Assembly (NCBI GenBank): GCA_026398735.1
Contig: JAPLSH010000003.1
Coordinates: 124,001 to 188,000, forward strand
DNA from: Pseudomonadota bacterium
GTDB lineage: Bacteria > Pseudomonadota > Gammaproteobacteria > Steroidobacterales > Steroidobacteraceae
Direction: 5' to 3'
Length of the DNA stretch: 64,000 nt
The translations under genes were made by a program, and so were the position numbers. The notes under the pieces are model-generated. The model was not told the DNA's origin and made no database searches. It saw nothing but the letters and a program-made list of their open reading frames with translations. Position 1 is the first letter of the stretch, and each line of letters starts with the position of its first letter. Of the stretch, positions 25,334 through 27,528 are shown one piece after another.

Positions 25334-25582
25334 TCAATCGCGCTTGGGTTGCGCCTCAAGCTGACGCACTCGCGCCTCGAGTTGTTCGACCATTTGCCGG
25401 GTGCGCTCGAGCACTCGGGCCTGGGCGTCGAACTCGTCGCGCGTGGCCAGATCCAGACGCGCCAGACCGGCGCGCAGGACGCTGCGGAAATTGGCCTCGA
25501 GGTCGTGCTGCGCGGCCCGTAGTGCAGGCGGCACGGTCTCGAACAGTTGGCGGGCAAGCTCTTCGATGCGACTGGTATTCAT
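25334..25582 (-). CDS. ubiK: Ubiquinone biosynthesis accessory factor UbiK (BMFP family)
   Basis: The protein has 82 residues: IEELARQLFETVPPALRAAQ, DLEANFRSVLRAGLARLDL, then a coiled coil VLERTRQMVEQLEARVRQLE. This is the YqiC/BMFP family; UbiK works with UbiJ in the ubiquinone-synthesis complex. ATG 25582 has AAGGAT upstream; an alternative start at 25720 would overlap the divergent glnK promoter. ubiE-ubiJ-ubiB lie at 31.9-34.9 kb in the same window. Confidence 0.88.
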   Translation of the reverse strand: MNTSRIEELARQLFETVPPALRAAQHDLEANFRSVLRAGLARLDLATRDEFDAQARVLERTRQMVEQLEARVRQLEAQPKRD

Positions 25583-25601
25583 GGTGATCCTTGGCAAGCA
25601 A

Positions 25602-25616
25602 GCACCCAATTGGTGC
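25602..25616 (+). promoter_or_regulatory. Likely NtrC enhancer site upstream of glnK
   Basis: GCACC-CAATT-GGTGC is a perfect 5-5-5 inverted repeat matching the NtrC consensus (TGCACY-N5-RGTGCA) except for the outermost bases. Its centre lies about 115 bases upstream of the start point predicted from the sigma54 promoter at 25699, a typical enhancer distance. Confidence 0.75.
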
Positions 25617-25698
25617 GTCAAAACAGGGCGCATGTCTAAAACTGTGCGAAATCGGGGTGTCGACCTACCCCAGAGCGCCGCGGCAAGGGCAGAGCCCG

Positions 25699-25714
25699 TG
25701 GCACGGTTTCTGCA
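25699..25714 (+). promoter_or_regulatory. Sigma54 (RpoN) promoter for glnK-amtB
   Basis: TGGCACGGTTTCTGCA matches the -24/-12 consensus TGGCACG-N4-TTGCW at all but one position, with the GG and GC dinucleotides correctly 10 bases apart. Transcription would begin near 25725, about 90 bases before the glnK ATG. With the NtrC-like dyad upstream this implies induction under nitrogen limitation. Confidence 0.85.
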
Positions 25715-25813
25715 AAACACCTACTCGAGTTCGCTCGTCCTTCGTGGATTCAAGCGTACTGGTAGATGTTCGGCAATGTGGCTTATGTGCCAGATCCTGA
25801 CCAAATGCACATC

Positions 25814-26101
25814 ATGAAAATGATCACGGCTGTAGTCCGGCCTTTCAAGCTGGATGACCTTCGAAACGCCATGGCAGAGCTTGGCGTTCAAGGCGTGACC
25901 GTTACAGAAGTGCTGGAAGACGGATTCGGACCGAGGGTCAAGCTCGAGGTGGCTGTCGCAGACAGCGTCCTCGAGCCGGTCCTCGAAGCCATCGCCAATA
26001 TCTCCCGTACGGGCAGAGTCGGCGACGGCAGCATCATCGCTGGCGAACTCGAGCAGGCCATTCGTATCCGCACCGGCGAGACCGGTAACGCGGCAACTTG
26101 A
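25814..26101 (+). CDS. glnK: PII signalling protein GlnK lacking the T-loop
   Basis: The protein has 95 residues where PII proteins have about 112. The N-terminal strand-helix MKMITAVVRPFKLDDLRNAM and GVQGVTVTEV are canonical, as are the B-loop RTGRVGDG and the C-terminal RIRTGETG. Between TEV (31-33) and VKLEVAV (42 on) only LEDGFGPR remains; the T-loop with the uridylylation Tyr51 and AmtB-plugging Arg47 is gone, about 17 residues in frame. Nucleotide binding could persist but UMPylation and classical AmtB blocking should not. Sigma54/NtrC sites precede it and amtB follows after 17 bases. ATG 25814 is the family-typical start; 25805 is possible. Confidence 0.88.
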   Translation: MKMITAVVRPFKLDDLRNAMAELGVQGVTVTEVLEDGFGPRVKLEVAVADSVLEPVLEAIANISRTGRVGDGSIIAGELEQAIRIRTGETGNAAT

Positions 26102-26118
26102 AGAACTGGGAGTCGCAC

Positions 26119-27528
26119 ATGCGCATTGATCTCGCCTCATCTCTCAAACCGCGCCTAGCAGGCGGCGCGATGGCAGCGCTGGGCACGCTGCTCCCCGTCC
26201 TGGCCGCTGCGGCCGATGCACCTGTCCCCAACAAGGGCGATACGGCATGGATGCTCACCTCGACAGTGCTGGTCATCCTGATGACCATCCCTGGCTTGGC
26301 GTTGTTCTATGGCGGCATGGTCCGCAGCAAGAACGTGCTGTCGGTACTGATGCAGGTGTTTGTCACCTTCTCGCTGATGGCGCTGTTGTGGGCCATCTAC
26401 GGTTACAGCTTCGCCTTCACCGCCGGCAACGATTTTATCGGCGGTGTTGATCGCCTGTTCATGCAAGGCTTGGCCACCGACGTGAATGCCGCCACCTTCA
26501 GTAAGGGCGTCGTCATTCCCGAGTTGGCGTTCTTTATCTTTCAGCTGACCTTCGCAGCCATTACCCCCTGCCTCATCCTCGGCGCATTTGCCGAGCGTGT
26601 GAAGTTCTCGGCGATACTGGTTTTCATGGTCCTGTGGTTCACGTTCTCTTACCTGCCTGTCGCGCACATGGTCTGGTTCTGGGCCGGTCCTGACGCCTAC
26701 ACCAGTGCTGAGGCGGGTGCTGCTGCAGGCTCGACTGCAGGCTTCCTGTTCCAAAAGGGCGCTCTGGATTTCGCCGGTGGCACCGTGGTGCACATCAACG
26801 CCGGTATCGCCGGCCTGATTGGCGCGCTGGTGATCGGCAAGCGCACCGGCTACGGCAAGGTCGCCATGCCGCCGCACAACGTGCCCTTCGTGATGATCGG
26901 TGCCGCTCTGTTGTGGGTGGGCTGGTTCGGTTTCAACGTGGGTTCGGGCCTCGAGGCCAACGGCCTGGCAGCACTGGTGTTCGCCAACACCATCCTGGCT
27001 ACCGCCGCGGCCACGCTGAGCTGGATGCTTGTTGAGTGGATCACCCGCGGCACGCCGACCATGTTGGGCGCTGCGTCGGGTGCAGTAGCCGGCCTGGTGG
27101 CCGTGACTCCGGCCTGCGGCTTCATCGGCCCGATGGGTGCCATCGTTCTGGGTCTGATCGCCGGTGTGGTCTGCCTGCTGGCAGTCAGCAAGCTCAAGAG
27201 TGCGCTGGGCTACGACGACTCACTGGACGTGTTCGGCGTGCACTGCGTCGGCGGCATCCTGGGCGCCATCATGACCGGCGTCCTGGCCGATCCGTCACTG
27301 GGCGGCACCGGCGTATACGACTACGTCGCCGACAAGGTGGCCGACTTCGACATGACTGCGCAGGTCATCGCGCAGCTGTGGGGCGTGGGCACCACGATCG
27401 TCTGGTCTGCAGTTGTATCGCTGGTCGCTTACAAGCTGGTGGATCTGACCATCGGCCTGCGCGTCAGCGAGGACACCGAGCGTGAGGGCTTGGACACCAC
27501 TTCGCATGGTGAGCGCGCTTACGACTGA
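26119..27528 (+). CDS. amtB: Ammonium transporter AmtB
   Basis: The protein has 469 residues: a signal sequence (to about LAAAADA) and eleven transmembrane helices. Landmarks are GGMVRSKNVLSVLMQVF, the pore twin histidines in VVHINAGIAGL and DVFGVHCVGGILG, and a complete cytoplasmic tail (GLRVSEDTEREGLDTTSHGE) of the kind that docks GlnK. It conducts ammonium or ammonia across the inner membrane. ATG 26119 follows GGGAG; a TTG at 26098 is less likely. Co-transcribed with the T-loop-less glnK; a strong terminator follows. Confidence 0.95.
   Translation: MRIDLASSLKPRLAGGAMAALGTLLPVLAAAADAPVPNKGDTAWMLTSTVLVILMTIPGLALFYGGMVRSKNVLSVLMQVFVTFSLMALLWAIYGYSFAFTAGNDFIGGVDRLFMQGLATDVNAATFSKGVVIPELAFFIFQLTFAAITPCLILGAFAERVKFSAILVFMVLWFTFSYLPVAHMVWFWAGPDAYTSAEAGAAAGSTAGFLFQKGALDFAGGTVVHINAGIAGLIGALVIGKRTGYGKVAMPPHNVPFVMIGAALLWVGWFGFNVGSGLEANGLAALVFANTILATAAATLSWMLVEWITRGTPTMLGAASGAVAGLVAVTPACGFIGPMGAIVLGLIAGVVCLLAVSKLKSALGYDDSLDVFGVHCVGGILGAIMTGVLADPSLGGTGVYDYVADKVADFDMTAQVIAQLWGVGTTIVWSAVVSLVAYKLVDLTIGLRVSEDTEREGLDTTSHGERAYD

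Follow-up and report, generated by a model that had tools for sequence, protein, structure and literature searches.

The glnK-amtB locus

The window (the whole stretch of DNA analysed here, 64,000 nucleotides of a Steroidobacteraceae genome, assembly GCA_026398735.1) carries at 25814..26101, on the forward strand, an open reading frame of 95 codons plus stop whose translation matches the Pfam P-II profile (PF00543; 61.1 bits against a cut-off of 25). It encodes a PII protein in which the T-loop has been swapped for a short turn, with a net loss of 17 residues. As the preliminary description had read it, TEV (residues 31-33) is followed by only eight residues, LEDGFGPR, and then by VKLEVAV; this turn occupies codons 34-41 (25913..25936, forward strand), and alignment with this genome's own GlnB (112 residues; 52 identities in 113 columns) requires a gap at the T-loop position. 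The NCBIfam equivalog PRK10665, which we take to be the GlnK model, gives the protein 93.2 bits, under its cut-off of 181. An upstream ATG at 25766, which would yield an N-terminally extended form of 111 residues, is ruled out by stops in the upstream frame of several relatives.

Immediately downstream lies amtB (26119..27528, forward strand; ORF and alignment), complete at 469 residues as had been claimed and with its conserved C-terminal region. The upstream neighbor, read from the ORFs at 25334..25582 on the reverse strand, is presumably a UbiK/BMFP-like gene beside a comM-like one. In the intervening region are a sigma54 (-24/-12) promoter-like element, TGGCACGGTTTCTGCA, at 25699..25714 on the forward strand, with 11 of the 12 fixed bases of the consensus, and an NtrC-like candidate dyad, AGCACCCAATTGGTGCG, at 25601..25617 (no strand assigned), with 11 of 14 bases of its consensus. 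The preliminary description had spoken of strong sigma54 and NtrC signals; the sigma54 match stands up to controls by shuffling and by window bins. Among the 16 distinct 400-base regions upstream of this gene in the window and its relatives (see below), all have a match of at least 10/12, found in 2.9% of base-shuffled regions and 10 of 159 400-base window bins, and 10 have a match of 11/12, found in 0.1% of shuffles and one of 159 bins. Across 17 loci the sigma54-like element falls 109 to 121 bases ahead of the glnK start; 14 of them also have a TGGTGC/GCACCA half-site, at a distance of 170 to 211 bases, and none was found upstream in the other three (L061, L062, L069).

From 25497 to 26243 (the end of the ubiK-like gene, the promoter, glnK and the start of amtB) the window is identical over 747 bases to a near relative, G002, while the 4870-base locus as a whole differs at 209 sites (95.6% identity). 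The identical tract points to either recent recombination or else unusual constraint.

Distribution in related genomes

The preliminary description had proposed looking in relatives for PII proteins of about 95 residues that lack the T-loop and adjoin amtB, and a profile search finds them: the 95-residue form is present in at least 17 of 217 family genomes, belonging to two genera (at least six of nine genomes of g1, the window's genus, and at least 11 of 15 of g10), as 16 distinct proteins with identities to the window protein down to 65%. A full T-loop at this site in relatives had been named as the sign of an assembly deletion; with one length in 17 genomes, two genera and many separately named assemblies, assembly or sequencing error can safely be set aside as an explanation.

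Seven g1 and g10 genomes lack the short form; two of these (G004, G176) have an assembled locus without glnK (see below), in three (G001, G171, G179) amtB lies at a contig end, and in G008 and G173 the amtB search gave no match. Outside the two genera, no T-loop-less form was found in samples of the order (396 genomes, E 1e-38), the class (369 genomes, E 1e-34) or the phylum (398 genomes, E 1e-32); these sets overlap, the best first-look candidates per genome were scored, and cut-offs this strict could miss diverged or independent T-loop losses. A mobile origin was rejected: the best placements of PII records from plasmids (92) and phages (15) are all below 60% identity, those listed (10 of the 92 and 5 of the 15) all have the full span, and the one relative on viral contigs, at 47% identity, is also of full span.

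Within the literature searched, whose coverage is incomplete, no GlnK that lacks the T-loop by nature was found to be described; what it does contain are T-loop deletions made by engineering (PMC7196632, PMC8092223) and short-looped families of PII-like proteins (PMC4316997, PMC12435418).

Conservation and predicted fold

Arg38, Gln39, Arg47 and Tyr51 are absent from the short GlnK, and Lys9 and Lys58 are replaced by Arg in all 16 distinct proteins. The replacement turn has invariant residues of its own: Glu35, Gly39 and Arg41, in 16/16. The B-loop and C-terminal motif had been called intact. For the C-terminal RIRTGE stretch this holds, with Arg84-Ile85-Arg86 (26063..26071, forward strand), the equivalents of Arg101 and Arg103, kept in every short protein; the B-loop (RTGRVGDGS, codons 65-73, 26006..26032, forward strand) preserves TGxxGDG, but the window copy reads GDGS instead of GDGK, with Ser at the Lys90 position. 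That position is variable in the short proteins (R in eight, K in four, H in two, and S, the window copy, and L in one each), so that 12 of the 16 have Lys or Arg there. Arg82, Thr83, Gly87, Asp88, Gly89, Arg101 and Arg103 are kept in 16/16 and Gly84 in 14/16; Gly87, Gly89, Arg101 and Arg103 are described as phosphate contacts in Corynebacterium glutamicum GlnK (PMC7919409).

An AlphaFold2 model of the window protein (single chain, alignment of 26 rows; mean pLDDT 80) predicts a hairpin in place of the T-loop, in which a turn of three residues links strands 28-35 and 39-48; confidence is poor for the last 15 residues of the chain (mean pLDDT 50 for 81-90 and 44 for 91-95). In comparison with solved structures, PII proteins come out nearest (VIA-align against the PDB: Z up to 12.8, 88-89 residues aligned, rmsd about 5), and as modeled the short GlnK has the PII fold of two beta-alpha-beta units. 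The top solved sequence for a six-row short-form profile is 5ovo chain B (110.8 bits), an engineered T-loop deletion discussed below.

Origin and selection

A tree of 88 core columns, with the T-loop region removed, rooted at its midpoint and with a bootstrap that had not fully settled, gathers the 16 distinct short proteins in one clade (support 99/85); judged from these sequences, the T-loop was lost once, in the common ancestor of g1 and g10. The sister group of the short clade, with a support of 98/98 for the pair, comprises 17 distinct GlnKs of genus g13, where GlnK was found in 19 of 24 genomes and is full length in all. Like the short form, g13 GlnK is linked to amtB, has a sigma54-like element upstream and carries the Lys9 to Arg (16/16) and Lys58 to Arg (14/16) replacements; unlike it, g13 GlnK has a T-loop, with Arg47 and Tyr51 in 16/16 counted rows, a 17th (113 residues, no Met start, Leu at 51) having been dropped. 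Arg38 is kept in 4/16 of these and Gln39 in 7/16. The median omega of the g13 T-loop is 0.243 (70 of 120 pairs), against 0.024 for the T-loops of canonical family GlnKs (18 of 45 pairs; dS 0.2-1.6 throughout), so the loop came under looser constraint either ahead of its deletion or alongside it. T-loop relaxation may have occurred a second time in the family: L031, the GlnK of G031 (genus g24), is full length and lies on a long branch outside the short clade, with an aberrant T-loop base, EEHGAGAPRTEMYRGAEYRFDW.

The preliminary description had argued that the protein is maintained, and purifying selection on the core is in line with this. Median core omega is 0.111 among the short proteins (91 of 120 pairs), 0.113 among canonical family GlnKs (30 of 45) and 0.116 in g13 (118 of 120); whole-gene omega among the short proteins is 0.117 (86 of 120). 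These medians are for pairs with dS 0.2-1.6, and since pairs are non-independent they are compared as they stand, with no test. Synonymous changes are many and others few (median pS 0.607 and pN 0.134 over 136 pairs), and all 17 copies have a gap-free 285-base match with no internal stop. A core omega so near that of canonical cores suggests that the core is doing work. A pseudogene can be rejected, given an omega well below 1 and no disrupted copies seen among the 17, even though the gene is missing in two genomes. GlnB is about five-fold more constrained: over the same 10 g1 pairs its median omega is 0.023, against 0.126 for the short glnK.

Association with amtB

In 14 of the 17 genomes amtB directly follows the short glnK (in two of these it is cut by the contig end); in two more, G175 and G180, the contig ends where adjacency would be read. 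G182 has a short glnK with no adjoining amtB: the genes that follow are, we presume, a small DUF4124-like gene and then dapF, and its amtB sits on a different contig, where the surrounding 4.2 kb showed no PII gene. Conversely, in G004 and G176 the locus is assembled and lacks glnK, and the sigma54-like element runs directly into amtB. The two genes are thus separable, and the role of the short glnK is not essential.

In an Amt tree from which identical and duplicate loci were dropped, the linked AmtBs (15 rows, 14 genomes) are scattered over several separate lineages, and well-supported branches force nine label changes, part of which are contig-end, unlinked or glnK-lost rows within the same clades. 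Amts linked to canonical GlnK are likewise scattered; taken with these mixed rows, this shows that amtB has been exchanged, but not why. The C-terminal stretch GLRV..EREGLD..HGE is kept in all linked AmtBs whose sequence extends there, and nine of the 10 unlinked Amts have a similar one.

Comparison with known PII proteins

The short GlnK stands apart from GlnB in the tree, has amtB as neighbor and is preceded by a sigma54-type promoter element: by descent it is a GlnK, though in function it falls outside the definition of a canonical PII, and it is a natural variant of this well-known family. With canonical GlnK and GlnB (Escherichia coli; Azospirillum GlnZ) it shares the predicted fold, the TGxxGDG part of the B-loop, RIRTGE, the sigma54-like element and the amtB neighbor; they differ in having the T-loop with Arg38, Gln39, Arg47 and Tyr51, and Lys where the short form has Arg at positions 9 and 58. 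In the canonical T-loop, Tyr51 is the site of uridylylation and Arg47 inserts into AmtB. With both residues gone, the earlier suggestion of a PII that could be neither modified nor used to block AmtB in the usual way gains support: judging from the family, the short GlnK would not be open to Tyr51 uridylylation or to AmtB plugging by the known route. Since Gln39 is lost as well, 2-oxoglutarate sensing, whose site in PII is served by Gln39 and Lys58 (PMC4316997), is probably also gone. The trimeric barrel and ATP/ADP binding are, by the same family knowledge, probably retained.

The nearest experimental counterpart is GlnZ delta42-54 (5ovo), in which the T-loop is likewise removed and the core kept; that protein is lab-made, with 13 residues cut and Gln39 and Lys58 in place, whereas the short GlnK is natural, is shorter by a net 17 and has a new turn. 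The c-di-AMP-binding PII-like protein PstA also has a PII fold, and its T'-loop is short and without Gln39 and Lys58, but PstA has no TGxxGDGKI B-loop; its B'-loop is long, and it carries GGFL, a c-di-AMP motif (PMC4316997). The short GlnK has TGRVGDG, and the GGFL motif is absent from its 95 residues.

Possible roles

Loss of the loop with the core kept, usually beside amtB, suggests a changed use of a very common nitrogen sensor. The preliminary description had offered nucleotide sensing and mixed trimers as other possible roles, and they are the two leading candidates here. The likeliest reading, to be held tentatively, is that the short GlnK is a T-loop-free subunit, induced by starvation, whose mixing with GlnB in trimers would lower the number of T-loops. 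Low nitrogen would lead NtrC to induce a flood of "blank" PII subunits, which would form homotrimers and also mix with full-length GlnB; fewer trimers would then have three T-loops, for as long as starvation lasts and shortly afterwards GlnB would be held back from the targets it reaches by the T-loop (NtrB, GlnE and AmtB), and AmtB would work without its usual gate and plug. PII paralogues, even distant ones, are reported to assemble into heterotrimers (PMC11121479, PMC5448240). Partly uridylylated GlnK trimers have been modeled as not blocking AmtB (PMC5448240), so by analogy trimers short of T-loops should not either.

The preliminary description had asked about a second, full-length glnB or glnK, and the window genome (2.77 Mb, 36 contigs, 98% complete) has one full-length GlnB (112 residues) with an intact T-loop, together with GlnD, NtrC and GlnE; in the genomes examined these regulators score over cut-off in 25/27 (GlnD), 23/24 (NtrC) and 19/19 (GlnE). 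T-loop targets and modification thus remain for GlnB. The single origin of the short form, its core omega, the phosphate-contact residues kept in 16/16 and the sigma54-like element found in 16/16 also count in favor of T-loop dilution, and the engineered GlnZ delta42-54 folds and crystallizes in a complex (5ovo). Counting against it are the moderate identity to GlnB (52/113 columns), the stronger constraint on GlnB, the two genomes that have lost the gene, and G017, a short-form genome that was alone among the 24 searched in giving no NtrC match at E 1e-120. The few candidates searched yielded no conserved partner beyond GlnB and its system. A bolder version, rather less likely, makes the "blank" GlnK a dominant subunit that is induced by starvation and would tune nitrogen signaling through a count of T-loops in its mixed trimers with GlnB, in a lineage that gave up GlnK gating of AmtB altogether.

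The chief rival, a serious one if rather unlikely, is that the short GlnK acts alone as a T-loop-independent adenylate sensor: a homotrimer that binds ATP or ADP and controls a partner enzyme through its body, the side cleft and the B- and C-loops making the contact, with 2-oxoglutarate and uridylylation ignored. There is precedent in GlnZ deltaQ42-S54, which binds NadE2 and relieves its inhibition by NAD+ while blind to 2-oxoglutarate (PMC7196632), and in the solved complex of GlnZ delta42-54 with DraG (5ovo), T-loops being unused in the GlnZ-DraG interface (PMC4285133). The invariance of the phosphate-contact residues and of Glu35, Gly39 and Arg41 would also fit. Against this, an engineered T-loop-less cyanobacterial PII failed to bind PirA (PMC8092223), most of the PII targets studied require the T-loop (PMC4285133), and the Lys90 position is variable. 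DraG itself finds no support as a general partner: of the 17 short-form genomes, 5 gave no match to an ADP-ribosylglycohydrolase (DraG family) domain, and the domain is present in both genomes that have lost glnK.

A less probable alternative is a fading gene: gating of AmtB would no longer be needed, and first the T-loop and then the gene would be lost stepwise, with the core lingering. The genomes can be arranged in such a series, from canonical GlnK through the relaxed T-loop of g13 and the deletion to the missing glnK of G004 and G176, but a decaying gene would hardly remain free of internal stops and gaps in 17/17 copies, keep the pS and pN values given above and a core omega like that of canonical GlnK, or acquire a turn with invariant residues of its own.

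It is very unlikely that AmtB is still regulated by the short GlnK, the PII body touching the conserved AmtB C-terminal region without plugging the channel. Adjacency in 14/17 genomes and the conserved C-terminal stretch of the linked AmtBs would suit such contact; yet the genes are separable (G182; G004 and G176), the linked AmtBs come from several lineages, which is hard to reconcile with a close protein fit, and a similar stretch occurs in most of the unlinked Amts compared.

GlnK gating of AmtB is said to be mandatory for limiting futile ammonium cycling. The T-loop, for its part, is described as the route to most studied PII targets (PMC4285133). A lineage in which the loop is deleted, the core kept and, in two members, the gene gone while amtB stayed amounts to a test of both claims set up by nature. 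The short GlnK also offers a ready-made T-loop-free PII with which T-loop signaling and nucleotide sensing through the body of PII could be told apart, and with which it could be tested whether mixed trimers carry information.

Other PII and amt genes

The window genome has a third, weak PII-like gene of 104 codons (L003, complement 1486-1800), flanked by what we take to be RND efflux-like and outer-membrane-factor-like genes; its product is probably metal-linked. A second amt gene (L159, contig C10:30828-32018 of the same genome, G000) shares its contig with glnB, some 24 kb away, and sits beside a response-regulator gene that is presumably NtrX-like; no PII gene was seen in the 4.2 kb around it. 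In g10, a further full-length GlnB-like gene often accompanies the short glnK (L207 and L208 are the G017 sequences), and at least 9 of the 15 g10 genomes have three PII matches.
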